Below are positions 21,175 to 48,410 of a DNA stretch of 50,653 bases, piece by piece. Position 1 is the stretch's first letter. Every line of letters begins with the position of its first letter. The notes under the pieces were generated by a model, which made no database searches, had not been told where the DNA came from, and was given only the letters and a program-made list of their open reading frames with translations. Both the position numbers and the translations under genes were made by a program. The stretch is from the NCBI GenBank assembly GCA_024637095.1, contig JAGXFV010000004.1:1-50653 (forward strand), given 5' to 3'. The DNA is from Actinomycetes bacterium. GTDB lineage: Bacteria; Actinomycetota; Thermoleophilia; RBG-16-64-13.

Positions 21175-22623
21175 ATGCCGGATGAGCGCGTCAGACGACT
21201 GCTGCGTGAGCTCCCCTCGATCGAGGAGCTGCTGCAGGCCGCCGAGTCCCGTGGTCTTCTCGGGGAATATCCGCGAGAACGCATAGCCGACGCCCTGCGG
21301 ATCGTCGTCGAGCAGAGCCGCGACAGGTTGCTGCGGATCGCTCCTGCGGAAGCGACCGAGGAGCTGGTGGCGGGCGAATCCCTTCTGCGGGAGGCGGCCA
21401 ACCGGCTGAAAGTCGAGTCTCAGCCTCGGCTCCGCCGGGTCCTCAACGCCTCGGGAGTCGTGATTCATACAAACCTCGGCCGCTCCAGGCTGGCGCCTTC
21501 CGCGTTCGCGAGGGTGGAGCAGGCTGCTCTCCATTACAGCAATCTGGAGTACGATCTCGCGGCCGGCGCCCGCGGATCGCGGCACGATCACGTGGAGGGC
21601 CTCCTCCGGGGCCTGACCGGGGCCGCCGGAGCCATGGTGGTCAACAACAACGCCGCCGCGGTGCTGCTGATGCTGGCCGCGCTGGCTGAGGGCCGTGAAG
21701 TGGTCGTCAGCCGGGGTCAACTGGTGGAAATCGGCGGTTCTTTCCGCATTCCCGACATCATGCGGCTGAGCGGCGCCCGGCTCGTCGAGGTCGGCACCAC
21801 TAACAAGACGCACTTCTCTGACTACGAGCGGTCGCTCACCGACGATACGGCGCTGTTGCTACGGGTGCATACCTCCAACTTCAAGGTGGTTGGTTTTGCC
21901 GAGGAGGTCCCAGTTGAAAGGCTGGTCGAGCTGGGCCGGAATCATCAGGTCTTAGTGGCCGACGATCTGGGCAGTGGGGCGCTCCTCGATCTCCCGGCCT
22001 CCTGGAAAGAGCCGTCCGTCGCCTCCTCGCTGCAGGCAGGAGTGGACGTAGTCAGCTTCAGCGGAGACAAGCTTCTGGGCGGACCGCAGGCCGGCATCCT
22101 CCTGGGCACGGCCGAGGTGATCGAGCGCTTGAAGCGTCATCCCTTCGCCCGCGCAGTCCGCGTGGACAAGATGACCTTGGCCGCCCTTGAGGGAACGCTG
22201 CTGCTCTATCAGGACCCGGCAAGTGCGCGGCGGGAAATCCCCACGCTTCGCTACCTCGAGCGCGGCCCTCAGGAGACGCTGCGGCTCGCCGAAAGGCTGG
22301 CGGAATTACTGGGGGAGTTGGGGGAGTCGGCGGGGATCAAGGATGCGGCCGTCTGCGTCCGCGAAAGTGTCGGCAAGGCGGGAGGCGGGTCTTTGCCGCT
22401 GCTGGAGATCCCGAGCCATGCGGTGGCGTTGCGGAGTGGCGTGGAGGCCTCTCGACTGGAGGCCGCGTTGCGTCGGGCTCCTTTACCGCTGATCGGCCGC
22501 GTAACTCAGGATGAACTGTGGCTCGACGTGCTTGCCCTGGACGAGGAGGAACTGGAAGAGGTGGCCAACACGCTGGTCTGGGCGCTGAGGCAGGGGCCGG
22601 CGGAGGACCTGGCTGGTGATTAG
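21175..22623 (+). CDS. selA: L-seryl-tRNA(Sec) selenium transferase
   Basis: SelA converts Ser-tRNA(Sec) to Sec-tRNA(Sec) using selenophosphate, with pyridoxal phosphate. The 482-residue length is right for the bacterial decameric enzyme. The N-terminal tRNA-binding helices occupy about 1-80. Conserved segments are NASGVVIHTNLGRS (91-104), VNNNAAAVLL (156-165) and the PLP lysine K299 in SFSGDKLLGGPQAG. Its stop overlaps the GTG of selB by eight bases. The substrate tRNA gene is at 45047-45143 of the same window. Confidence 0.97.
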   Translation: MPDERVRRLLRELPSIEELLQAAESRGLLGEYPRERIADALRIVVEQSRDRLLRIAPAEATEELVAGESLLREAANRLKVESQPRLRRVLNASGVVIHTNLGRSRLAPSAFARVEQAALHYSNLEYDLAAGARGSRHDHVEGLLRGLTGAAGAMVVNNNAAAVLLMLAALAEGREVVVSRGQLVEIGGSFRIPDIMRLSGARLVEVGTTNKTHFSDYERSLTDDTALLLRVHTSNFKVVGFAEEVPVERLVELGRNHQVLVADDLGSGALLDLPASWKEPSVASSLQAGVDVVSFSGDKLLGGPQAGILLGTAEVIERLKRHPFARAVRVDKMTLAALEGTLLLYQDPASARREIPTLRYLERGPQETLRLAERLAELLGELGESAGIKDAAVCVRESVGKAGGGSLPLLEIPSHAVALRSGVEASRLEAALRRAPLPLIGRVTQDELWLDVLALDEEELEEVANTLVWALRQGPAEDLAGD

Positions 22624-24544
22624 GCGCGGGCTTACTCTGGGCACGGCGGGTCATATCGACCACGGGAAGACCACCCTGGTCAAGGCGCTCACCGGCAAGG
22701 ACACCGACCGCCTGCAGGAAGAGAAGGAACGGGGGATCAGCATCCAGCTGGGCTACGCCGAACTGACTCTTCCGGGAGGCGCCCACCTATCGATCGTCGA
22801 CGTTCCCGGCCACGAGCGCTTTGTCAAGAACATGGTGTCCGGCGCGACCGGCATAGATCTCTTCTTACTCGTCGTCGCCGCAGACGACGGGGTGATGCCC
22901 CAGACGCGCGAGCACCTGCGCATCATCGAGCTCCTGGAGATCCCTCGCGGGGTGGTCGCTCTGACCAAGATCGACATGGTTGACCCCGAGATGATCGAAT
23001 TGGCGACCGCCGACATCGAGGATTTTCTGGCCGAGACGCGTTACGTGGACGCGCCTGTGATCCCGGTGAGCGGGGTCACGGGCAGGGGGCTAGAACAGCT
23101 GCTCGAGGTGCTCGCCGAGGTGGCGCAGGGGGTGCCAGAGCGGGGAACCTATCCTGCCACGCGAATGCCCGTGGACCGAGTCTTCAGCCTGAAAGGGATC
23201 GGCACCATTGTCACCGGGACCCTCTGGTCGGGGGAACTCGGCACCGAGGATACGGTTACCGTACTCCCGTCGCGGGAGGCCCAGGAGCTGAGCGAAATCC
23301 GGGTTCGCTCCATTCAGGTGCACGACCAAGGAGTGGAGCGGGCCCTGGGAGGACAGCGGGTGGCGCTCAACCTGACGGGCATCGACAAAGAGGAGGTCGA
23401 CCGTGGGCAGTGGATCGTGCTGGATCCTGCGGTGCGCCCCACCTATCTGGCCGACGTGCATCTGATCTTGCTGGCCGATGCGCCCGAGCCCTTGACCCGG
23501 GTTTCCCGCGTGCGGGTGGATCACGGCACCCAGGAGGTCATCGCCAAACTGGTGCTCGCGGATCGGGAGGAGTTGCGCCCCGGCGAGGACGCCTATGCCC
23601 AGCTTCGCTTTGAGGAGCAGGCCCTGGTCTACCCCGGAGATCACTTCATTTTGCGATCGCTGACGCCGGTTTCGACGATCGGAGGAGGCCGCGTCTTCGA
23701 TCCTCACCCGCGCAAGCACGGCACGGATCCTCGGTGGCGCGACCGGCTTCGAGTATTGGAAGAAGGCAGCGGCGAGGAGATCGCCAAGCTGCTGTTACAC
23801 GAGGCTTTTCCGCAGGGGATTCGGCGCCGCCGTCTGGACGAGAGCCCTTATCTCTGGCGGCACGAGGGATCCAAGGTGGTCAACCGTCTGCTTCACCAGG
23901 AGCTGGCGCACGAAGGGCCGCAGAGCGCGCTCTTCCTTTCCGAGGAACTGTGGGGGTTGGCGGAGCGGGTGATGGACGCGCTGAAGACCCGGGCGCGGGA
24001 GGAAGCGCTCGACCCCTACCTGACCGTCGGAGGCATACGCCGGCTCGTGAGCGGGGGTCAGGAATGGCCCGCGCTCGACGCGGCGCTCGAACTGCTGCAA
24101 AGGCAAGAAGCCATCGTGCGCACGGAGCATGGTTACCGCTGGGCGGAGGCCGCCGGAGGCCTGGAGGGTCGGGACGCCGAGACCGCCGAGCAGCTCTACC
24201 GGGCGTTTGCGGAAGTCGAAGTAGAGACGCCCACGGTGGCTGCGGCCGCTGCGAAGGCCGGCCTCACCCCGAGCGAGGGGTTACGCTTGGTGCAGGCGCT
24301 GGAACGGCACGGCCGGATGGTCAAGGTGGGCGAGGACCTCTACTACGCGGAACCCGTCCTCTCGGCTCTCATCGCGCGGATCAGCGCGGCGATGGAGGAG
24401 CGCGGAGAGATCACCCTCGCGCAGGTCCGCGACCTCCTGGACACCTCGCGCAAGTATGCTCAGGCGTTGCTGGAGCACATGGATTCGGAAGGGTTCACCC
24501 TGCGAGTGGGAGACGCCCGCCGCCTGCGCAAGCGCCGGCGCTAA
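22616..24544 (+). CDS. selB: Selenocysteine-specific elongation factor SelB
   Basis: This GTPase delivers Sec-tRNA(Sec) to UGA codons followed by a SECIS hairpin. The 642-residue protein has GHIDHGKT (12-19), DVPGHE and TKID for nucleotide binding, EF-Tu-like domains II and III, and C-terminal winged helices (from about residue 375) that bind the SECIS RNA. The GTG start overlaps selA. The stop overlaps that of the convergent M20 gene. Together with selA and tRNA-Sec it shows that the organism makes selenoproteins; selD must lie elsewhere. Confidence 0.97.
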
Positions 24545-34621: not shown

Positions 34622-35995
34622 ATGGCGAAGTACACGTCGATGGCATACAACAGCTGGGACGAGATGATCTTCGGCACCACGAAGAACCCAGTCTCGATCG
34701 GTCTCGGCCCGGTAGAATTGGGGAAGGGTTGGGTCGTTCCTCAGATCGTGCCGCATCCCCGCCCCGGTAGCACCGACACCAAGGAAAAGCTGCTCCGCGA
34801 GTACCAGCGGATGACCGATGACGCCCTGGGCAGATGTGTCGCCCTTGGTTTCCCCGCGCTCGTCATCGAGTTCGAGCACATCTATCAGATGACCAGCCAG
34901 CCCGATTGGGCCGCGGCCATCTTCAAGCAGGCCAAAGCCCAGATGCAGGACTACTACGACAAGTACGGTCTCAAGTCTGCTCTGATCTCGACCGTGGCCG
35001 ACCTGCGCAAGCCCGACATGGTGCACATGCGGAAATCGCAGGAACTGGACTGGATGCTGGAAACCTTTGCCTCCACGGCAGAGAACGGGGCCGACGTTCT
35101 TTCGATCGAGACCATGGGCGGCAAAGAGGTATTCGACTGGGCCGTCCAGCGTCAGGATATCCGTGGCGTGATCTTCGGCATAGGCGTCCTGTCGAGCCGC
35201 GACATGGCATGGCTCTGGCCGCAGATCGTGGACACGGCTAAGAAGAACAACATCACCGCGGGCGGCGACACCGACTGCGCCCGTGGCAACACCGCCATGT
35301 TCCTTGCCGGCGGATATACAGCCACCGACCTGCCGCACACTTTCGCGGCGCTGGCCCGTGCTTGCTCCGCGGCACGCTCCCTGGTGGCGTACGAGCAGGG
35401 CGCGACCGGTCCCACCAAGGACTGCGCGTACGAAGATCCCATCATCAAGGCCATCACCGGCGTTCCCATCACGATGGAAGGTGTCGCCTCGGCCTGCGCC
35501 CACTCCGAGATGCAATCCAACATCGTCGCGGCCGTGGTCGACCTCTGGAGCAACGAAGCGGTCGAGTACCACGACATGTTCGGCGGCTCGAGCGTCGAGG
35601 TCTTTACCGAGATCCTTGGCTACAACGTGGCTCAAATGAACGCTTCCATAGCGCTCGGTCAGGAGAAAGTGCTGCGCGACATCAACATCGCGAGCGACAA
35701 GTACCGCGACGTCCACGGCTTCATGCTCTCGCCGGACAACTCGTATGAGATCGGCAAGGCCATCGTGGAGAATATCGACAGTTACTACGGCCGGTCCAAA
35801 GCGGCAGTCCTCAAGACGGCCGAGCTGATCTCAGGCGACAGCAAGATGCAACTGACCGAATTCGAAAAAGACGCTCTAGACAAGGCCCGCCGCGAAGTCG
35901 AGGCACTGCCCGACAGCGAGGACGAGTTCATCGATCAGTGCCTGAGCGACTACAAGAAGGTCGCCGGTTTCGACCCGAGTGCATACGGCTTCTAG
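34622..35995 (+). CDS. mtaB: Methanol:corrinoid methyltransferase MtaB
   Basis: MtaB activates methanol on zinc and passes the methyl group to Co(I) of the corrinoid protein MtaC. The 457-residue length equals the methanogen enzyme, and the zinc ligands known in Methanosarcina barkeri (E164, C220, C269) are matched here one position earlier: E163 in SIETMGGKE, C219 in DTDCARGN and C268 in TKDCAYED. The C-terminus ends in the family's NYGF-like AYGF. ATG 34622 follows the ribosome site GGAGGG. mtaC lies 46 bases downstream. In an acetogen-type bacterium this feeds methyl groups to a folate carrier. Confidence 0.95.
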   Translation: MAKYTSMAYNSWDEMIFGTTKNPVSIGLGPVELGKGWVVPQIVPHPRPGSTDTKEKLLREYQRMTDDALGRCVALGFPALVIEFEHIYQMTSQPDWAAAIFKQAKAQMQDYYDKYGLKSALISTVADLRKPDMVHMRKSQELDWMLETFASTAENGADVLSIETMGGKEVFDWAVQRQDIRGVIFGIGVLSSRDMAWLWPQIVDTAKKNNITAGGDTDCARGNTAMFLAGGYTATDLPHTFAALARACSAARSLVAYEQGATGPTKDCAYEDPIIKAITGVPITMEGVASACAHSEMQSNIVAAVVDLWSNEAVEYHDMFGGSSVEVFTEILGYNVAQMNASIALGQEKVLRDINIASDKYRDVHGFMLSPDNSYEIGKAIVENIDSYYGRSKAAVLKTAELISGDSKMQLTEFEKDALDKARREVEALPDSEDEFIDQCLSDYKKVAGFDPSAYGF

Positions 35996-36041: not shown

Positions 36042-36806
36042 ATGCCAAAGAGTCTGAACGAAGTGAGCGACTTCAGCAATATTTTCACCCGGTACGACAT
36101 TGGCGCGGCGGTGCAGAAGCGGGGCGCCGAAGACGTCAGCACGGACAAGGTCCTCCAGGCGATCGCCACCGGAGTGGTAGACGGCGATGAGGATGTGGTG
36201 CTCGAAAACACCAACAAGGCGCTCGAGAACAACGAGCCCACCAAGGTCATCGACACCCTCATAGCGGGGATGCGTGAGGTCAGCAAGTTGTGGGATGACG
36301 GGGTGTACTACCTGCCCCAGGTGATCCTCTCCTCCGACGCACTGATGGTCGGTCTGGAGAAGGCCGAGGACGCGATGGGCGGCAAGGCCGTGAAGAAGGG
36401 CACCGTGGTCATGCACTGCGCCCACGGTGACATCCACGACATCGGCAAGAACATCGCCGCGGCGCTCATCCGGGCCAATGGGTTCAAGGTCATCGACCTG
36501 GGCTCCGACGTCCCCGAGGACGAAGTGGTCAAGGCGGTCAAGGACAACAATGCGAACCTGGTGACGGGTACGGCCCTGATGACCACCACCATGTCGGCCT
36601 TCGCCAAGATCGCCAAGATGATGAAGGACGAGGGAATGACCACTCCCTTCGTCTGCGGCGGCGGCGCTGTGTCCGAGGAGTACGTGACCAGCTTCGATCT
36701 GGGTGTCTACGCTGATCAGGCCAAGCAGGGCGTGGAGATGGCGACCGACGCCTCTTCCGGTATGTCCTGGGAGGATATGCGCAGCAAGTACAACCTGGTG
36801 ATGTAG
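36042..36806 (+). CDS. mtaC: Methanol-specific corrinoid protein MtaC
   Basis: A 254-residue B12-binding protein, carrier of the methyl group between MtaB and MtaA. The N-terminal helical cap covers about 1-110. The Rossmann-like domain then opens with the signature D130-x-H132-x-x-G135 (HGDIHDIGKN), where H132 is the lower axial cobalt ligand, followed by GSDVPEDEVV, LVTGTALMTTTM and VCGGGAV. Ribosome site AGGAGG precedes the ATG. MtaB directly upstream in the same transcript gives the methanol specificity. Confidence 0.95.
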   Translation: MPKSLNEVSDFSNIFTRYDIGAAVQKRGAEDVSTDKVLQAIATGVVDGDEDVVLENTNKALENNEPTKVIDTLIAGMREVSKLWDDGVYYLPQVILSSDALMVGLEKAEDAMGGKAVKKGTVVMHCAHGDIHDIGKNIAAALIRANGFKVIDLGSDVPEDEVVKAVKDNNANLVTGTALMTTTMSAFAKIAKMMKDEGMTTPFVCGGGAVSEEYVTSFDLGVYADQAKQGVEMATDASSGMSWEDMRSKYNLVM

Positions 36807-36870: not shown

Positions 36871-36903
36871 CGGGGCGGCGCGCCATTCTGGCGCGCCGCC
36901 CCG
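36871..36903 (+). terminator. Perfect 14-bp GC-rich hairpin between mtaC and mtaA
   Basis: CGGGGCGGCGCGCC (36871-36884) pairs base for base with GGCGCGCCGCCCCG (36890-36903) across a five-base loop ATTCT. No T-run follows, so it may slow but not end transcription, or protect the 3' end of the mtaBC message. It would then set unequal amounts of MtaBC and MtaA. Confidence 0.5.
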
Positions 36904-36989: not shown

Positions 36990-38015
36990 GTGAACCACAA
37001 AGAGCGCTTCATGGCAGCTATCAGAGGTGAAGAGACGGATAGGCCCTCGGTCTTTTCGGCGAACCAGACCGCTACTTACGATCAGATGGAAGCTTCGGGA
37101 GCGTCTTGGCCGGAGGCGCACCAGGAAGCCAAGGCCATGGCCGACCTTGCGGCTGCCGCTTACACCGAGGCCGGGTTCGATGCCGTCCGCGTTCCCTACT
37201 GCCAGACCATGGAGGCAGAAGCCCTGGGATCGACCGTCAAGTACTCGGGGAGGGAAGGTGTGCCCCGGATTCTCGATCACGGGTACAACCCCGGAGATTC
37301 CATCGAGTTACCCGACGACTTCCTCGAGCGCGGCCGGATCCCCGAGGTACTGAAGGCCATCAGGCTGCTCAAGGAACGCTTTGGCGATGAAGTGGCGGTG
37401 GGCGGCAACGTCGTGGGTCCCTTCTCCATCGTCGCCAATCTGCTGGGCATCACCCCGGTTCTCAAGACCAGCTTCAAGAAGCCCGACGATCTCCAGCCTT
37501 TCTTGAAGGTAGCCGAGCAGGCCGGTACCGAACTCGGCAAGGCCATGGTCGACGCCGGCGCCGACTTCCTGATCATCGAGGACATGATGGCTTCGATCGA
37601 CGTAATCAGCCCGCCGATCTATAAAGCCGTGGCGCAGCCCTGGGAGAAGCGGCAGATCGAGAATCTGCCCGACGTCCCCACCATCATCCATATCTGCGGA
37701 GCCGTGAATCCCATCGGCAAGGACATCGCCGAAACCGGTGCGACTGCCCTCAGCGTGGAGCCGAGCGTGGACGCGCCCGCCCTGAAGAAGGACCTGGAGG
37801 GCTTCGGCCGGCCGATCCCGCTGATCGGTGGTGTGGATGCGGTGGACACGCTTTTCTCCAAAGGAGAAGAAGCGGTAAAGGCCGACGTTCGCAAGGCGCT
37901 CGATCAAGGCTACGACATGATCGCCCCGGGCTGTTCCATTCCCCCGCAGGCCACCATTGGAAAGTTGAAGGCCATGGTAGAGGCGGCGGAGGAGTATGCG
38001 GACAGCTCCGCCTAG
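36990..38015 (+). CDS. mtaA: MtaA/UroD-family methylcorrinoid methyltransferase
   Basis: A 341-residue member of the uroporphyrinogen decarboxylase-like methyltransferase family. Zinc ligands H234 and C236 (TIIHICGAVN) and C315 (APGCSIPP) match the His-x-Cys-xn-Cys site of MtaA/MtbA. In methanogens the acceptor is coenzyme M; in the acetogen Moorella an MtaA-type protein passes the methyl to tetrahydrofolate, which is more likely here. GTG 36990 has a GGGAG ribosome site. The start of the AAA+ gene overlaps its 3' end by 20 bases. Confidence 0.88.
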   Translation: MNHKERFMAAIRGEETDRPSVFSANQTATYDQMEASGASWPEAHQEAKAMADLAAAAYTEAGFDAVRVPYCQTMEAEALGSTVKYSGREGVPRILDHGYNPGDSIELPDDFLERGRIPEVLKAIRLLKERFGDEVAVGGNVVGPFSIVANLLGITPVLKTSFKKPDDLQPFLKVAEQAGTELGKAMVDAGADFLIIEDMMASIDVISPPIYKAVAQPWEKRQIENLPDVPTIIHICGAVNPIGKDIAETGATALSVEPSVDAPALKKDLEGFGRPIPLIGGVDAVDTLFSKGEEAVKADVRKALDQGYDMIAPGCSIPPQATIGKLKAMVEAAEEYADSSA

Positions 38016-39081
38016 CTCTTTTCAGGCCTCGGATCTGGCAGAACTGCGCGCGCAGGTAAGCGCGCGCAGTGGACTGCCCGTCCGCGAACGCGAGGCCACC
38101 GCGTATGACGGGGTGTGGGCGGTCGGGGATGAGTCCCTGCTGTTTGGCGCCTTGGTGGCGGGCGAGCGCCCGGGCGAGCAGCTGGCGCGCGGAGTAGTGC
38201 TCGACAAGTGGGACGATGCCGCGCGCGCGGGACGGGACGATTTGGTTCCGCGGGTTGAGCCCTATCAAGACCACGACGGTCTGCTTTACCGGACCGCCCT
38301 CGCCTACCACCTCGACATCCCGGTGGCCTTTCACGGGCACACCGGCGTGGGGAAGACCGAACTGGTGCGGTACCTGGCCTGCCTGCTGCAGGCTCCCCTC
38401 TACCGGCTGAACCTGCACGGGCTGTCCACCACCGACGACATCATCGGCAAGTTGCTGCCGGCAGGCGCGGGAGAGGTTAGATTCCAGGACGGCCTGGTCA
38501 CCACCGCCGTGCGCCACGGAGGGGTGCTGCTGCTCGAGGAGCTGAATGCGACGGGGCAGGAGGTCTGGTTCTCGCTTCACGGCCTCCTGGATCAGTCGCG
38601 TGCCCTCGTTCTGGTGGAGAAGGACAACGAGGTGGTGAGGCAGCATTCGAACTGCCGCATCTTTTCGACCTTCAACCCGCCTGAGTTTCTCACCCTCTAC
38701 CCCGGCACCAAGGAGCTCTCCACGGCCTACCTGCGCCGCTGGGCGTCCATACGGATAGGTTTCCTCGACCGGGAGGCGGAACACGCCCTCCTGCTGCGAC
38801 GCTTCCCCGAGCTGGCGGGCGAGGAGTGCAGCGCGGATGTGGAGGCCATGCTCGAGGTCGCCGCCCTCGCGCAAGTCATGCTGGAGCAGAGTGCGAGTTC
38901 CTTCCCCTTCGTCTTCGCCACCGGAGTGCTGCATGCCTGGGCGCGTTTGGTGCCCTATCTGGGACCGTTGCCGGCGGCGCGGATGACGTTCTACGACGTG
39001 CTTGACGAACGGCTCAAGGCGGTCTTTCGAGAGCAGGTCTTTGCCTACTCCACGCCTTGGGATCTGAGCGCACTGGGGTAA
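37996..39081 (+). CDS. MoxR/CbbQ/NorQ-type AAA+ ATPase
   Basis: A 361-residue AAA+ ATPase. Walker A GHTGVGKT is residues 114-121, Walker B VLLLEE 177-182, sensor-1 Asn227 in STFNPPE and an arginine-finger pair RRW at 248-250. The MoxR clade, including CbbQ, NorQ and CobS, works with VWA-domain partners to insert or free metals or inhibitors from enzymes. The ATG overlaps mtaA by 20 bases, so it is translated from the methanol operon. Its likely VWA partner is the next gene, on the opposite strand. The first 90 residues are not recognised. Confidence 0.85.
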   Translation: MRTAPPSSFQASDLAELRAQVSARSGLPVREREATAYDGVWAVGDESLLFGALVAGERPGEQLARGVVLDKWDDAARAGRDDLVPRVEPYQDHDGLLYRTALAYHLDIPVAFHGHTGVGKTELVRYLACLLQAPLYRLNLHGLSTTDDIIGKLLPAGAGEVRFQDGLVTTAVRHGGVLLLEELNATGQEVWFSLHGLLDQSRALVLVEKDNEVVRQHSNCRIFSTFNPPEFLTLYPGTKELSTAYLRRWASIRIGFLDREAEHALLLRRFPELAGEECSADVEAMLEVAALAQVMLEQSASSFPFVFATGVLHAWARLVPYLGPLPAARMTFYDVLDERLKAVFREQVFAYSTPWDLSALG

Positions 39082-39142
39082 ACCCGGGGGTGTTCGCGAC
39101 TCTACGCGACCCTACGTGGGCCTCCCCGACCCTATCTGATCC

Positions 39143-40924
39143 TCAAGACCAGAGGGCCAGCGAGGCTGCCCGGGCCTCGGCCACGATCTCGTCCAGCAGT
39201 TCGAGAAATACCGGCAGGGTCTCCCACCCCTCGGTCAGGCAGAGCGACCGGGGATGGTAATCCGGGCAGATGCCGAGCCCAAGTCCCAGGAGGTCGATAT
39301 TGGCCCGCTTTAGCCAGGGAACCAGGGTTTCGCTGTAGTAGGGAGCAAGCTCCGAGCCCCCGAGCAGGGGGAGCACGTCTCTAACCGGCGTGCCGTCGGT
39401 CAAGACCACGATCATACGGTGGTCGGCAGTCACGGACTGAGCCTGCGCGGCCGCCCAAGCCACCGCTTCGACCTCCTTGGTTCCCGAAATCAGGTAGCCG
39501 AAGTCGCCGCCAAAATCGGTGGAGAAAGTTCCGGTGCGGTGATCGTGCACCCGGGTGAGCTCAGAGGCGTATAGGGTCACGTCGACCGGGACGCGAATAG
39601 TCTGGAGGACCTCGGTGAAGGCGGCCGCCACGGCCAACGCTTTGGAGGCGTTGTCGTTCTGCAGCATGCTGTAGGAGGCATCGACCAGGAGATGGAAGTA
39701 GTAGCTGGTCTTCTGAGGCGTTTCCAGCCTCTGGAACAGGCGAAGGTCGCCCTGGATGACATAGCGGCGCAGATTCGAGGTGCCGATGTGCTTGCCTGCC
39801 CGGTAGCGCCCGCGGTGCCGCCGCTCCCAGTTGGCGCGCAAAGCGCGCCGCAAAGCCGGCACTTCCTGCGCGAAGGCTTCTCGGGCGCGTGGCCCGTAGT
39901 CTGCAGCCAGCCGCTCGAGAACCTTGCGGTTGATCTCCGTGGGTTCCAGTTCGCTTCCTTTGGCCACCTCGACCCGCAGCAGCACCTCGCCCCCGTCGAC
40001 GTGCGGCAGAGGAACGATCTCGCCCCAGATGGGCTGGGCGGTCCCGCGGGCATTCAACTCCAGGTCCGCGGCCAAAGGCTCGAGTTCTCGACGCAGGGCT
40101 TCGGGATCGCCGGCAAAACTCTCGGGGCTGCTGTCCGTCCGGTCCCCTGCGAGCATCTCGGCGGCCAGCATCTGGGGCAGCAAATCCCAGAGCAGGAACT
40201 CGGCGAGCGCATAGGCTCCGGCCAGGTCCCCGGCCGAGAGCACCCGATTGAGCGGAGCGCGCAGGCGGCCCGAAAGCCGTGATGGAGCGTGTTCCTGCCG
40301 TCGTAGGAGCAGGCCGGCCTCCCCCAAGAGCGCCATATCGGCTCCCGCCGATTGCGCCCACGCCTCGGCCCGCGCGTCCCCGCCCTGCAGCAGGTACGTG
40401 GCGTGGGGGAAGCGCAGGCGGAGAAGGCCGTCGCAGCGGTCCGCCTCCAGCCGCTCGAGCAGCCCCAGGATGGCGTCACTTCCCCGCTCGGTGGCGACCA
40501 GCTTGCGAAGCAAACGGGAATGGCGGCGGGGGCGGGGATCGTTCAGAGCGATAGCCACGGGGTCGGGATCTTCGGGTCCAGGAGAAAAGAGCAGACGTCC
40601 CAAACCATGGAGCACCCCCGAGCGGAGGGCCTTGCGATAGTCGTCCGCGACCGCCCTCTCTGGCGCCGCCGGCAGACACTCCGGCGAGAGCAGGCCGACT
40701 ATGAGGCGGACGGCAAAACTCCCGTTACGGCGCCGCATCCAGGTGAGCGAAAGCCGCTCGCTCAGGGAGAACTCCACGCTGAGGTCGACCTTGGCCACCG
40801 AGCCCGCGAAGACCTCAGCCGATCGCGCCGCCGCCTCCAGCTTCTCGACCAGATGGCCCGACTCCTCGAGCGAGAAGCCGGGGAAGATCAGGTGTGCGGG
40901 TTGCTCGAACCTCGCGTTGGCCAT
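39143..40924 (-). CDS. VWA-domain protein, partner of a MoxR-type ATPase (CobT/CbbO/NorD-like)
   Basis: A 593-residue protein. The C-terminal von Willebrand A domain starts near 405 and has an intact metal-ion site: D415-A-S417-Y-S419 and TDG near 509. A basic stretch just before it (RRHRGRYRAGKH) resembles the linker of CobT/NorD-type proteins. The first 400 residues are helical and not recognised. It is the third gene of the leftward set after the CobW-type GTPase and the RamA-like gene (six bases between), and is tail-to-tail with the AAA+ gene. The pairing with the AAA+ protein is an inference. Confidence 0.82.
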   Translation of the reverse strand: MANARFEQPAHLIFPGFSLEESGHLVEKLEAAARSAEVFAGSVAKVDLSVEFSLSERLSLTWMRRRNGSFAVRLIVGLLSPECLPAAPERAVADDYRKALRSGVLHGLGRLLFSPGPEDPDPVAIALNDPRPRRHSRLLRKLVATERGSDAILGLLERLEADRCDGLLRLRFPHATYLLQGGDARAEAWAQSAGADMALLGEAGLLLRRQEHAPSRLSGRLRAPLNRVLSAGDLAGAYALAEFLLWDLLPQMLAAEMLAGDRTDSSPESFAGDPEALRRELEPLAADLELNARGTAQPIWGEIVPLPHVDGGEVLLRVEVAKGSELEPTEINRKVLERLAADYGPRAREAFAQEVPALRRALRANWERRHRGRYRAGKHIGTSNLRRYVIQGDLRLFQRLETPQKTSYYFHLLVDASYSMLQNDNASKALAVAAAFTEVLQTIRVPVDVTLYASELTRVHDHRTGTFSTDFGGDFGYLISGTKEVEAVAWAAAQAQSVTADHRMIVVLTDGTPVRDVLPLLGGSELAPYYSETLVPWLKRANIDLLGLGLGICPDYHPRSLCLTEGWETLPVFLELLDEIVAEARAASLALWS

Positions 40925-40930
40925 CGGCCG

Positions 40931-42574
40931 CTAGCGCGCCCGGATGAACTGACTGAAGCTGAAGCACTTGTCGGGGCAGGATATCTGGCAGCGCAGGCAA
41001 CTGAGGCCCAGGCAACTCGCAGAATCCACCCGCACCTCGGCCCGGCCCTCCTCGTCGTAGTCCAGACTGATGGCGTTCTCGGGGCACACGTCCTCGCAGG
41101 TGCCGCACGAGGTGCAGCCTTCGAAGCAGGCCACCATCTGCATGCCGACGTCGGTGACCACTTTGAGGCCGCGGCTTCCCAGATCGGGGATGTCCCGGTC
41201 CACCAACCGGATGACCTCCGCGTTGTCGGGGAATTCGCGCGGTGCGGGCAGTCCCTGGCGCTTCATGAACTTGAGGTACATCTCCCAGGGCATGCCCTCG
41301 GTCCAGTAGGCCAGTTCCAGAATGTACACTTCCTTGAACACCTTGGCTTCGGCGAACATGGAGTGACTGGCGCGCAGGTTCTTGGCGATCTCCTCGATCT
41401 CCCAGACGTGGTCCGGGTCGATCACCAGGTCGCGCGCCAGCATCAGGGAGGTATTCCCGATCTGGTACATGCGCTCTACCGAGGCCGGCACCATCCCGAT
41501 CATCTGCGCCTTGCGGGCGTCGACGTACGTGCCCGAGGCGCCCGCCATGTAGGCGACCTTGACTTCCTCCAGGTCGATACCAAGTTCCTGAGTCAGGGTG
41601 ACGTGGCCGGCGCGGGCGGCCCCGACCGCCTTGCCCACCTCGATGACGTCTTCCTTACCGAGGACCACCCCGTTGGCCAGATGCATCTTGCCGTCCGGCG
41701 AGTCCAGCCCGGGCAGTTTGACGAAGCCGTCCTGCAGCCCGAGGCCGATGGCGCCCATTACCCCGGTTCCCGTGATACCGCGGGCGATGGCCTCGCCCTC
41801 CTCCAGGATCTCGCCGGTGCGGGGATCGACCACTCCCGCCCCGGCGGCGAACATCTCTTCGTTCAGAACCAAATTGCGATACCCGCCGTCGGCAGCCTGC
41901 AGATCGGAGATGGCCCCGGGGGCCGCCAGCATGCCGTAGGCTATGGCCTGGCCCTCGAAGGCCGGGCCGCACGCGGCGGAACCGGTCACTACTTGATCGC
42001 CCACCTTGAGCGCCATCTCGGCGTTGGTGCCGTAGTCGGTGGCCAGGGATATCTCGTCCCGGTCCAGCATGCCCGACTTGACCATCATCGCCAGGGCGTC
42101 CGCGCCCACTTCGTGCCGGATCGCCGGGGGCACGATCAGCTGGGCGTCGTCGGGAAGGCCTAGCCCTGAGATTTCGCCCACCAGGCCGATACGGGCTTCG
42201 CGTGACTGAAGTTCGACGCCCAAAGATTCCCGCTTGCGCTCGCCGGCGTAGGCCAGATCGCGGATCTCCATGCCCTGGAAGAGGGATAGTTGGATGGGGT
42301 TACCGCAGATGCCCAGGCGCACCACTTTGTCCCGGGGAATACCGAGCGCCTCGATCACCTTGTTCGCCGAATCGGCCAACAGATGACGGGCTATCGAATC
42401 GGGCCCGGCCTCCACGCTCTCGACGGCAAAGTGGAGGTGGTCCATCACGTTACCGCCGGGCAGCGGATGCTGGCTGGTGATCGCCGTAGAGACGATCTCG
42501 CCGCTGTCCAGGTCGATGGCCTGTCCCCGAATCCCGCTGGTGCCCAGGTCGAGCGCTATGCCGTATCGTTCCAT
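40931..42574 (-). CDS. RamA-type ATP-dependent reductive activase of corrinoid proteins
   Basis: A 547-residue protein with an ASKHA-type ATPase core (COG3894/DUF4445): GIALDLGTSGIRGQAID at the start and ATDYGTNAEMAL in the middle. A C-terminal ferredoxin-like domain holds two Cys sets, C487/C490/C493/C497 and C521/C526/C529/C533, with an additional C537. It returns the inactive Co(II) of MtaC to Co(I) using ATP and low-potential electrons. This matches methanogen RamA; the bacterial RACo instead has an N-terminal [2Fe-2S] domain, which is absent here. Confidence 0.88.
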   Translation of the reverse strand: MERYGIALDLGTSGIRGQAIDLDSGEIVSTAITSQHPLPGGNVMDHLHFAVESVEAGPDSIARHLLADSANKVIEALGIPRDKVVRLGICGNPIQLSLFQGMEIRDLAYAGERKRESLGVELQSREARIGLVGEISGLGLPDDAQLIVPPAIRHEVGADALAMMVKSGMLDRDEISLATDYGTNAEMALKVGDQVVTGSAACGPAFEGQAIAYGMLAAPGAISDLQAADGGYRNLVLNEEMFAAGAGVVDPRTGEILEEGEAIARGITGTGVMGAIGLGLQDGFVKLPGLDSPDGKMHLANGVVLGKEDVIEVGKAVGAARAGHVTLTQELGIDLEEVKVAYMAGASGTYVDARKAQMIGMVPASVERMYQIGNTSLMLARDLVIDPDHVWEIEEIAKNLRASHSMFAEAKVFKEVYILELAYWTEGMPWEMYLKFMKRQGLPAPREFPDNAEVIRLVDRDIPDLGSRGLKVVTDVGMQMVACFEGCTSCGTCEDVCPENAISLDYDEEGRAEVRVDSASCLGLSCLRCQISCPDKCFSFSQFIRAR

Positions 42575-42583
42575 GCCTCTCCC

Positions 42584-43513
42584 CTACTGTTGGTTGGTGG
42601 CTCGAGCCGCTTTCGTTGATCCGGCGGCGCACAATCTTTCGAACGCCTGGTCGAGTTTCTCGCGCTCGAGGTTCTGGCCGATCACGACCAGGCGGCCTTC
42701 GGGAAGGGGTCCGGAGGGTTGCTCCTCGAGGGTATCTCCTGCCAGATCCAACCTCAGCCAACCTTTCTCGGTTTCGGCCAAGGCCTTGGCGCGCTCGATC
42801 TGCCCATAGCCGCCGCCGCGCAGATCCTGGAAGAGTTCGGTCAATGCTTCCCCGGCGACGGGGAGGAGCAGTTTGCGGCTGACCGAAGCAAAACCCTGCA
42901 GGGCTTCGCTCTCCGGAGCTTCCCTGGGCGGTCGATAGGGGGGCAACTCGATGGCTTCGCTCACCTGACCCCGCACGGAGGGAACGATCCAGGCCCCGGG
43001 CGAGATGCTCTCGAGCGCACCGCGGACCATCGTCACCCGTGAATTGGGAACCAGATCAGTCTTGTTTAGGATGATCAGGTCGGCGGTCTTGACCTGCGAG
43101 GTGAAGAAGGCCGGGCTCTCCCTCAGGCGTTCGGCGAAGGTGGTTGCGTCGACCAGCACGAAGACGCGCACCCCGTCGATGATGCCGGCCAGAGAGCCGT
43201 GCTCGAGTGCCTTGAGCACCTGGCCGGTGGTGGCGATGCCGGTTGGCTCGATCAGGAGGCGCTCGGGTTTCAGATCGCGGGAGATCTCGAGGATCTGCGT
43301 GCGAAAGTCCATACGCAGGGTGCAGCAGATACAACCGCTCGAAAGCTCGACCACCCCCTCGGCGCCGGAAAGGAGCAGCCCATCGATGCCCAACTCTCCG
43401 AACTCATTGACGAGCACGACCAAGCGGGAAGGGTCCGGATCGGTCTCGATCAGCCGGCTGATGAAGGTGGTCTTTCCGGCTCCTAAGTAACCGGAAACGA
43501 TGTCGACCTGCAT
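42584..43513 (-). CDS. CobW/G3E-family GTPase (metal chaperone)
   Basis: From ATG 43513 (MQVDIVSGYLGAGKTT) the protein has 309 residues. The G1 loop GYLGAGKTT is 8-16, the metal-binding CxCC motif is C61-I-C63-C64 (SSGCICCTL), and LNKTDL is the guanine-specificity motif. The C-terminal CobW domain follows after about 215. G3E GTPases deliver zinc, nickel or cobalt to client enzymes. Being first in the leftward operon with the RamA-like activase, zinc delivery to MtaB or MtaA is a reasonable idea. The longer frame (to 43579) lacks support. Confidence 0.85.
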   Translation of the reverse strand: MQVDIVSGYLGAGKTTFISRLIETDPDPSRLVVLVNEFGELGIDGLLLSGAEGVVELSSGCICCTLRMDFRTQILEISRDLKPERLLIEPTGIATTGQVLKALEHGSLAGIIDGVRVFVLVDATTFAERLRESPAFFTSQVKTADLIILNKTDLVPNSRVTMVRGALESISPGAWIVPSVRGQVSEAIELPPYRPPREAPESEALQGFASVSRKLLLPVAGEALTELFQDLRGGGYGQIERAKALAETEKGWLRLDLAGDTLEEQPSGPLPEGRLVVIGQNLEREKLDQAFERLCAAGSTKAARATNQQ

Positions 43514-43621
43514 GGTCCCCCCAGACTTCGCGTCGACTACGGGATAGGTGCTAACCGCGATTCTCAGTAGTCGCGCCACTCAGCATTCTATCTCACCAGA
43601 GGCGGCCCAGCTTACGCCGCG

Positions 43622-45836: not shown

Positions 45837-48410
45837 ATGCAGCATCGGTTACGACTGTTGGTCCTCCTCACGCTGGTCGGCCTGATCAGCCTGGGAGCGG
45901 CGGGCAGCGCTTTGGCGGCTCCCACCACCAACGCCTTTGGCCAGACCTTTGCCGGTCAGGACAGGTGCGTTACCTGCCACTCGATGCCGATCTTTGGCGA
46001 GGGTCTGGATGTGGCACCCGCGTATCTAGAATCGCGTCACGGCGCCTTCATGGCGGACGTGCTCGCAAATCCCGAACTGCTCATTCCGGGCATCAATTCC
46101 GGTCTCTGGCCGTCCCCACTGGGTGACGGCGTCGGCGGCCTCCAGTTCGGGCCGGACGATGTCTGGCTTCAGGTCGGGGCACCCGGCCGGGCCAAGGAGT
46201 ACATCGCCAAGTACCAAGGCGGCGACGCCACCAACAGCCTGGGGCAGTACATCCCCGCCATCAATCCGGCGGATGACTACCCGATCTTCGACCCCATGGG
46301 CTTCAGCGAAGAGCACATGGAGTGGGAAGGCGAAGGCGACGCGGTGGGCGTGGCGGCCTACTTCCAGCGTTGCGGCGGCTGCCACAACCTGGGCCTCACC
46401 CGTCCGGCCAATGCCGAGATGACCCTGCCGAACGGCGCAGTCATCGGCCCGGACACCCCGACCGAATGGGCCGGTCTCGGCATTCAGTGCGAGAACTGCC
46501 ACGGCACGGGTTCTACCGACAGCCCACACGAAACCACCGGCGTGGGTGTAGTGGGGATGCCGCGGATCCTCTCCTCGGAAGTCTGCGGCCAGTGCCACGT
46601 CAACGCGGCGACCACCGAGAAGCGGCTGGGCTCGGGCAGCAGCTTCAGCAATCCGAACGCCTACACCACCGATCAGGTCCTGGCCGAGTTCATCACCGTC
46701 TACGGTTATGAGACCCCCGGCAAGGTCTATCCTTCCGGCCACAACCAGGGCATGCACCACAGCTACTACAACGAGTGGCTGCTGTCCGGCCACGCGGACT
46801 CGCGTTCGGTGCTCAAGGATGGGGAAGGCAAAGCCATCGCCCACGCCAGTGGTGAGTGCATGAGCTGCCACTCTGCCGAAGGCTACATGAAGGCCAACGG
46901 CTACGAGTCGAGCTTCTTCGAGACGTATGAGCCCTCTGTCGAAGGCGACACCCTCGACGTCGAGTGCGCCGTCTGCCACACGGTCCACAACCCCACCGGC
47001 GAAGCCCTAGGCCTGCGCGTGGAGCGCGACGAGGTGTGCTCGCAGTGCCATAACGGCGACATCGAAGAAGGCGGCAAGCTGGACCCGGCCGCCGGTGTGC
47101 ATCATCCGCAGAAGGAGATGCTGGAAGGTTACGGCCTGATCGGCGTCGCGGATGCGGAACCCTACATGGGTTACGCCACTTGCGTCGACTGCCACATGCC
47201 GAAGACCAACGCGGAGCGGGTTAGCCACCGGATGACCCCCATGCTTCCTGGCGAAGCCGAGGAGTGGGGCGTCCAGGAGGAGGGCGACTCCTGCAGTTCC
47301 TGCCACAGCCTGACCCGCGCCAGCCTGCAGAATCAGATCGACAGCTGGGCAGGGAAGATCGACGCCGGCATTGCTGACGCGAATGCGGCTATCACCGCGG
47401 CCCAAGACGGTCTTGCCGACAGCGACACCTTTGGCGCGGCGCTGATCGCGGCCGCCAAGGGCAATGTGCAGTTCGTCGACGGCGACATGAGCCAGGGCGT
47501 CCACAACCCGCCGTACGCGGTCGCCGGCCTGAAGAAGGCCGAGGAGTTCGCCGCTCTGGTGGGTTCGGCACTCGACCTCACGCTCCCGGCGACGGCCAAC
47601 CCCGGTGACCTAGTGATGGCCAGCGGCAAGCTGATGGACGGCTCTGACGCCGCCCTTTCCGGTCAAGCCATCACGATCAAGGTCGGCGGCGAGACCGTGG
47701 CCCAGGCGAAGACCGACGCCGGCGGTGCCTTCTCGGTTCACTTCGCTGCCCGTAAGAGCGGCGCTTACGTTGCGGTTTGGGCGCCGGTTCCCGGCGGCGA
47801 GTTGGCTTCCGCCCCGGTCACCCTGAACGTCCAAGGTGTGCCCATGGCTCACTTCAGCGACGTCCCCATGACCCACCAGTTCTTCGCGCATATCGAAGGC
47901 CTGTACGGTGAGGGGATCATCGACGGTATCGGCAGCGGTATGTTCGGTCCTGCGGAACTCGTCAAACGGGCCCAGATCGCCAAGATGGTGGTGGGCGCGA
48001 TGGGCATGCACGACGATGCCTGGACCAACTGGGGCACTCCCAGCTTCGAGGACGTGCCAATGCCGGCCGTCCAGAACGAAGCCGATCGCTATCCCTTCGA
48101 CTACGTCGAGGAAGCGAAGATGAACGGTGTGGTCAAGGGTGTGACGGCGGACACGTTCGAACCCTGGGCCAATATCACCCGGGTGCAACTCGCGCTGATG
48201 GTGGCCCGCGCCAGCGGAGCCGACCTGAGCGCAGCCCCCGCCTCGTCCTTCACCGACATCACCGGCCTGAGTGAAGAAGCTCAGGAGGCGATCAACTGGT
48301 GCAAGGCGAACGGCATCATCGACGGCAAGACCGCGACCACGTTCGACCCCTACGGGTCGGCGACCCGCGGCCACGCCGCCAAGATGATCTGGAACCTGAT
48401 GCAGATGTAG
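45837..48410 (+). CDS. SLH-anchored nonaheme c-type cytochrome
   Basis: An 857-residue secreted cytochrome. Signal peptide residues 1-27 (cleavage after SALA). Nine CXXCH heme sites lie between about residues 44 and 490: CVTCH, CGGCH, CENCH, CGQCH, CMSCH, CAVCH, CSQCH, CVDCH and CSSCH. A helical segment with GVHNPPYA (about 557) recalls nitrite-reductase and octaheme-type cytochromes. A beta-sandwich, Ig-like region follows (about 580-667), then three SLH domains (about 672-723, 737-792, 805-857). The SLH repeats should bind the protein to cell-wall polymers, leaving the hemes near the surface. Transport of electrons across the wall is likely. Confidence 0.93.
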   Translation: MQHRLRLLVLLTLVGLISLGAAGSALAAPTTNAFGQTFAGQDRCVTCHSMPIFGEGLDVAPAYLESRHGAFMADVLANPELLIPGINSGLWPSPLGDGVGGLQFGPDDVWLQVGAPGRAKEYIAKYQGGDATNSLGQYIPAINPADDYPIFDPMGFSEEHMEWEGEGDAVGVAAYFQRCGGCHNLGLTRPANAEMTLPNGAVIGPDTPTEWAGLGIQCENCHGTGSTDSPHETTGVGVVGMPRILSSEVCGQCHVNAATTEKRLGSGSSFSNPNAYTTDQVLAEFITVYGYETPGKVYPSGHNQGMHHSYYNEWLLSGHADSRSVLKDGEGKAIAHASGECMSCHSAEGYMKANGYESSFFETYEPSVEGDTLDVECAVCHTVHNPTGEALGLRVERDEVCSQCHNGDIEEGGKLDPAAGVHHPQKEMLEGYGLIGVADAEPYMGYATCVDCHMPKTNAERVSHRMTPMLPGEAEEWGVQEEGDSCSSCHSLTRASLQNQIDSWAGKIDAGIADANAAITAAQDGLADSDTFGAALIAAAKGNVQFVDGDMSQGVHNPPYAVAGLKKAEEFAALVGSALDLTLPATANPGDLVMASGKLMDGSDAALSGQAITIKVGGETVAQAKTDAGGAFSVHFAARKSGAYVAVWAPVPGGELASAPVTLNVQGVPMAHFSDVPMTHQFFAHIEGLYGEGIIDGIGSGMFGPAELVKRAQIAKMVVGAMGMHDDAWTNWGTPSFEDVPMPAVQNEADRYPFDYVEEAKMNGVVKGVTADTFEPWANITRVQLALMVARASGADLSAAPASSFTDITGLSEEAQEAINWCKANGIIDGKTATTFDPYGSATRGHAAKMIWNLMQM

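Follow-up and report, generated by a model that had tools for sequence, protein, structure and literature searches.

A conserved AAA+/VWA protein pair in a bacterial methanol methyltransferase locus and its possible role in activating a corrinoid enzyme

How the corrinoid cofactor is inserted into the corrinoid proteins of methyltransferases, and how a damaged corrinoid is removed from them, is poorly understood; the reductive activase RamA deals with the redox state only. The locus described here raises the question of what two genes, one coding for an AAA+ ATPase and the other for a protein with a VWA domain, are doing among the genes of a methanol methyltransferase. It lies in a stretch of 50,653 nt from an anaerobic Actinomycetes bacterium (contig JAGXFV010000004.1, GCA_024637095.1; genome labelled G000), the full length of which is referred to as the window. 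The gene order is mtaB-mtaC-mtaA-AAA+ on the plus strand, facing VWA-ramA-cobW on the minus strand. A preliminary description of the window had singled out the AAA+/VWA pair and had suggested that it serves the methyltransferase. The genes, their coordinates and their neighbours were confirmed, the same block was found in two genera, and the interpretation as a whole was partly supported. The locus is real and conserved, and machines of the AAA+/VWA kind probably have a new client in it.

The AAA+ gene (37996..39081, plus strand) codes for a protein of 361 aa with intact Walker A (HGHTGVGKT), Walker B (LLLEELN) and sensor 1 (STFNP) motifs, and HGHTG, LLLEE and TFNP are invariant across nine relatives. 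It matched AAA_5 in Pfam (61 bits) and, once midasin was set aside, the solved structures of CobS (E 3e-18), CbbQ (3e-16) and NorQ (7e-15), which places it in the CobS/CbbQ/NorQ group. The earlier name of MoxR-type ATPase therefore holds in the broad sense and fails in the narrow one, since the MoxR family model PF07726 (AAA_3) has a cut-off of 27 bits and the protein scored 17.3. CobS was also its best NCBIfam match, with 64 bits where the model requires 558. The CbbQ_C domain (PF08406) was not found in this protein by Pfam search; it is present in the other AAA+/VWA pair of the same genome, a canonical one formed by an AAA_5 protein with CbbQ_C and an 885-aa VWA protein (L085:7771-11337, in G000 C24).

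The partner gene (39143..40924, minus strand), whose stop codon is 61 bp from that of the AAA+ gene, codes for a protein of 593 aa consisting of an N-terminal helical/beta domain, a linker and a C-terminal VWA domain with a metal ion-dependent adhesion site (MIDAS). The five MIDAS residues, D415xS417xS419 (DASYS) and T509-D510 (TDG), are invariant in relatives, as is W592. No Pfam model matched this protein above cut-off, CobT_C included; a profile of eight VWA relatives retrieved CobT as the best solved-structure match (E 1e-7). The NorD VWA domain was the second fold match (E 7e-3) of a low-confidence model (pLDDT 61), and such fold matches are only suggestive. The protein is thus distantly CobT/NorD-like. 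A MIDAS-bearing VWA partner stands next to the ATPase in nine of nine copies, in one of them with an insert resembling an insertion sequence. Both genes are under purifying selection, with ratios of nonsynonymous to synonymous substitution (dN/dS) of about 0.06 for AAA+ and 0.12 for VWA, and both members of the pair are intact, conserved and inherited together. The proposal of a CobT/CbbO/NorD-like protein lying tail to tail with the ATPase, beside ramA and cobW, was borne out: this is a genuine pair of the CobST/NorQD kind.

In order to define the distribution of the pair, one genome per species in GTDB 220 was scanned for two conserved AAA+ peptides, a pattern-based procedure that could miss remote orthologues. 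Apart from the species of the window, six others contained the close AAA+ subfamily, all of them labelled as Actinomycetota, Actinomycetes, Thermoleophilia or Gaiellales; a ninth scan match, with 32% identity, was rejected as a member. The same picture emerged from searches covering 199 genomes of the class and 396 genomes of the phylum, in which members scored about 650 bits and the next relatives about 107 bits. The latter are VWA-AAA+ pairs in tandem order close to ABC transporter-like genes, and reading these surroundings by eye revealed no corrinoid genes. In these searches the subfamily was found only in one family of Thermoleophilia-like Actinomycetota, with nine copies in seven genomes that fall into two clades. 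Four copies, two from the window's genus (G000 and G001) and two from the genus g4 (G004 and copy a of G013), share the block mtaB-mtaC-(mtaA)-AAA+ facing VWA-ramA-cobW. This block is kept across both genera although its flanks differ, indicating that the block itself is what is conserved; together with the purifying selection on both genes, this makes the arrangement more than chance. A fifth copy with convergent genes occurs in a third genus (G006a). In the remaining four copies the genes are in tandem; three of these are beside molybdenum hydroxylase genes (G006b, G012 and G009) and one is near a gene for a tungsten aldehyde:ferredoxin oxidoreductase (AOR; G013b).

A tree of the AAA+ protein together with the C-terminal domain of the VWA protein split convergent from tandem copies with support of 100/98.8. 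The AAA+ protein alone was too weak to group the mta-linked copies, and resolution needed the VWA C-terminal domain. The approximately unbiased test (p 0.15) neither supported nor rejected a grouping of the four mta-linked copies that leaves out G006a. The N-terminal domain of the VWA protein was outside the tree and bears a separate mark of the split. In all four tandem-clade proteins (L028:4926-7007; L029:6730-8652; L030:11016-12899; L031:11159-13249) it carries HELGH, of the form HExxH, followed by LEDAR(V/I)ER; in all five convergent-clade proteins these are replaced by LHxLGR and LE(G/A)xR(T/C)D, the degenerate motif of the window being LHGLGR. HExxH is a presumed metal site, possibly zinc-peptidase-like, its metal binding being read from the motif. 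It would be intact in the clade linked to molybdenum and tungsten enzymes and missing from the one linked to mta genes.

MtaB was detected in six genomes of the class sample, all from this one family, and had no match in the plasmid and viral scans. When the count was restricted to genomes of the family with a completeness of at least 90%, the convergent clade was present in 5/5 with MtaB versus 0/9 without it (Fisher p 0.0005), and the tandem clade showed no link to MtaB (p 0.5). Counted by genus, the figures for the convergent clade are 3/3 versus 0/7, or about p 0.008 by simple arithmetic. Close RamA orthologues (at least 72% identity) occurred in exactly the MtaB genomes among eight tested. 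The suspected co-occurrence with mtaBC was thus recovered for the convergent clade in this family; with all cases inside one family, it is suggestive, not conclusive. Since its evolutionary history follows the methanol enzyme, the pair probably serves to load or repair that enzyme. The usual neighbour of the sister clade offers a further clue: molybdenum hydroxylase (PF02738) had no match in G000 or G001, and the other 16 family genomes have 1-14. That the pair is kept in the window's genus, at the dN/dS values given above, supports a client other than a molybdenum hydroxylase, and a CoxDE-like maturation of such an enzyme was rejected for this genus. PF00115 proteins are encoded on other contigs of G000; a haem-copper or NO reductase is not favoured as client, as G000 has its own CbbQ/VWA pair.

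The neighbouring genes confirm that this is a methanol methyltransferase locus, with MtaB, MtaC and a RamA-type activase all present. The presumed clients are encoded by mtaB (34622..35995, plus strand; methanol-corrinoid protein methyltransferase, PF12176 650 bits) and mtaC (36042..36806, plus strand; methanol corrinoid protein, with the B12-binding domain PF02310 and PF02607, and MtaC models as best NCBIfam matches). MtaB scored 653 bits with NF040651, under the strict NCBIfam cut-off of 720, a shortfall expected for a bacterial relative. They are followed by an mtaA-like methylcobamide methyltransferase gene (36990..38015, plus strand; PF01208, URO-D; PRK06252 310 bits, above cut-off), which belongs to the block in the window's genus only and is missing from the g4 blocks. 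Beyond the VWA gene lie a ramA-type gene for the corrinoid protein reductive activase (40931..42574, minus strand; TIGR04270 723 bits, above cut-off) and a CobW/COG0523 metal GTPase gene (42584..43579, minus strand; PF02492 140 bits; PF07683). The MtaB, MtaC, RamA and CobW assignments are made with confidence. In G004, G013, G006 and G014, two small membrane-protein genes of unknown family, which the window does not have, were observed upstream of mtaB (L025:6341-7236; L026:6199-7091; L049:11558-12538; L050:486-1274).

Expression signals were also inspected. The AAA+ gene starts at an ATG that is closely preceded by GGAGGAG, and its first 20 nt overlap the end of mtaA; the sister species keeps this overlap, so that the translational coupling to mtaA put forward earlier is plausible in the window's genus. 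Directly 3' of mtaC there is a perfect 13-bp GC hairpin (36872..36902, plus strand), terminator-like although without a long T run, which separates mtaC from mtaA and the AAA+ gene. A strong hairpin of differing sequence stands at this position in six of six genomes with mtaBC, whichever gene is next (the window, L016, L025, L026, L049 and L050). The AAA+ gene thus seems to lie past an apparent mtaBC terminator, which makes simple co-expression with mtaBC doubtful and fits a helper made in smaller amounts. As to the opposite orientation of the partners, it is real and marks one clade; the idea of separate dosage that had been attached to it rests better on this hairpin.

Taken together, we propose with moderate confidence, and largely by analogy, that the pair would be an AAA+/VWA remodeller, akin to CobST and NorQD, that has come to serve the methanol methyltransferase MtaBC in cofactor loading or in rescue. 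Several observations weigh against this proposal. The co-occurrence is supported by three genera of one family only. In G006, a genome that does have mtaBC, the convergent pair is about 95 kb from these genes and about 6 kb from a molybdenum hydroxylase gene; its VWA gene has a frame change, real or due to a sequencing error, and an IS110-like transposase gene with frame breaks, recognised by eye, lies between the two genes (L018:10422-12196). G014, a genome 64% complete, has mtaBC, ramA and cobW without the pair between them, ramA following mtaC on the other strand, in what looks like a locus lacking the pair. Tungsten AORs are present in eight of eight genomes tested, with four in G000 on another contig. 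To our knowledge, the mtaBC of other organisms are not known to require such a pair.

In one alternative the target is zinc and not the corrinoid: the CobW GTPase encoded next door would supply the metal, and the pair would place it in MtaB (or MtaA). The presence of cobW in the block speaks for it, as do the facts that MtaA and MtaB are zinc enzymes next to which COG0523 subfamily 13 is known (PMC2770081) and that NorQD inserts a plain metal ion. In G014 and in Methanosarcina, however, cobW and ramA accompany mtaBC and the pair does not, so that zinc could be supplied independently of it, and the sister clade is associated with bulky pterin cofactors. We consider this alternative unlikely. 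Similarly improbable is a client elsewhere, a tungsten AOR or some other metalloenzyme on which the pair would act in trans, its place beside mtaBC being incidental. Such a client would agree with the AOR beside one tandem relative, with the ubiquity of AORs noted above and with their position about 5-9 kb from the block in both g4 genomes. It would also agree with the five of nine copies found away from mtaBC, four of them beside molybdenum or tungsten enzymes, which goes halfway towards the situation that the preliminary description had named as contrary to its own idea, namely a pair occurring mainly away from corrinoid methyltransferases. On the other hand, no AOR is encoded in the 50-kb window, AORs also occur where the convergent clade is absent (G009 and G012), and the block stays linked to mtaBC in genera where its flanks differ. 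A third possibility, that the pair acts as CobST within a cobaltochelatase of the aerobic type and makes the corrinoid instead of loading it, is very improbable: despite the similarities to CobS and CobT, the large subunit CobN (PF02514) is absent from all eight genomes tested, control genomes being positive, and the CobS score is far under its cut-off, so that the canonical CobNST enzyme is refuted and some other substitute for CobN would be required.

Returning to a remodeller recruited to MtaBC, its action can be pictured from NorQD, in which the partner with the VWA domain extends into the ATPase ring, activation of the client depends on the MIDAS, and a linker is put under strain by ATP hydrolysis (PMC9976466, PMC13036017). 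The ATPase would form a hexameric ring and the VWA protein would dock on it, using its N-terminal domain and MIDAS to hold MtaC/MtaB; hydrolysis of ATP would then strain the client so that a cofactor could enter or a dead one leave. The step most likely served would be the insertion or replacement of the MtaC corrinoid, which RamA would then reduce to Co(I). Small amounts of the pair would suffice, in keeping with a gene located beyond the hairpin after mtaC. That the MtaC corrinoid is preferred here to the MtaB zinc is a judgement, made because the sister clade, by its gene context, goes with bulky organometallic cofactors and because the VWA gene adjoins ramA, whose client is a corrinoid protein. 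More tentatively, the pair may be a dedicated activase for a corrinoid methyltransferase, driving with ATP the loading or exchange of the MtaC corrinoid or the MtaB zinc, and related to a maturation pair for molybdenum or tungsten enzymes, from which it would differ by a change of client, loss of HExxH in the VWA partner and altered gene order. If so, AAA+/VWA machines would gain a new client class, with a small soluble client for mechanism studies, and two sister clades with different presumed clients would provide a natural comparison of how such machines choose their targets.

Other features were observed in these genomes. In the window, selA adjoins selB (21175-24544), and the organism probably makes selenoproteins; a large multihaem cytochrome with S-layer homology domains (45837-48410) may carry electrons across the cell envelope. 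Reading by eye showed an apparent operon for CO dehydrogenase/acetyl-CoA synthase elsewhere in G000 (L102, C15:28000-47900); it includes folD and a gene for a second corrinoid activation protein, and it suggests that the organism has a Wood-Ljungdahl pathway and lives by acetogenesis from methanol or in a similar way. In G006 a bacterial microcompartment locus (L101:4053-12195) encodes an activase of the RamA type together with a corrinoid protein and a methyltransferase of the URO-D family; it also has two BMC-domain proteins, EutN/CcmL and an aldehyde dehydrogenase and is flanked on both sides by identical transposase-like open reading frames.

Comparison with known systems shows that CobW beside mtaABC, and AAA+/VWA pairs for metal sites as a kind, are already known. 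Clusters of mtaABC, ramM/ramA and COG0523 genes have been described in Methanosarcina and some Clostridia (PMC2770081); like the block in the window, they bring together a methanol methyltransferase, a reductive activase and a CobW-family GTPase, and the window block differs in adding the AAA+/VWA pair. The view that a corrinoid methyltransferase served by such a pair had not been described held in the open-access literature searched, where no paper joining the two was found. With CobS/CobT the pair shares the best NCBIfam match of its AAA+ protein and the best solved-structure match of its VWA profile; it differs in scores far under the CobS equivalog cut-off and under that of CobT_C, and in a genome without CobN. 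CoxD/CoxE help to build the CuSMoO2 cluster in CO dehydrogenase (PMC3471820, PMC4240915), and the tandem sister clade adjoins genes of the CO dehydrogenase/xanthine dehydrogenase family, a likeness read from gene context; the window's genus has no such enzyme. NorQ/NorD, which insert non-haem iron into NO reductase (PMC9976466, PMC13036017), differ in their client and in the CbbQ_C domain that the window AAA+ protein lacks, and a separate CbbQ-type pair is found in the same genome. They share with the window pair a ring ATPase of the AAA+ type and a partner built of an N-terminal domain, a linker and a C-terminal VWA domain with MIDAS, and the helix-2 insert of the window protein (GKLL...DGLVTTAV) resembles the GRxLL motif of NorQ.

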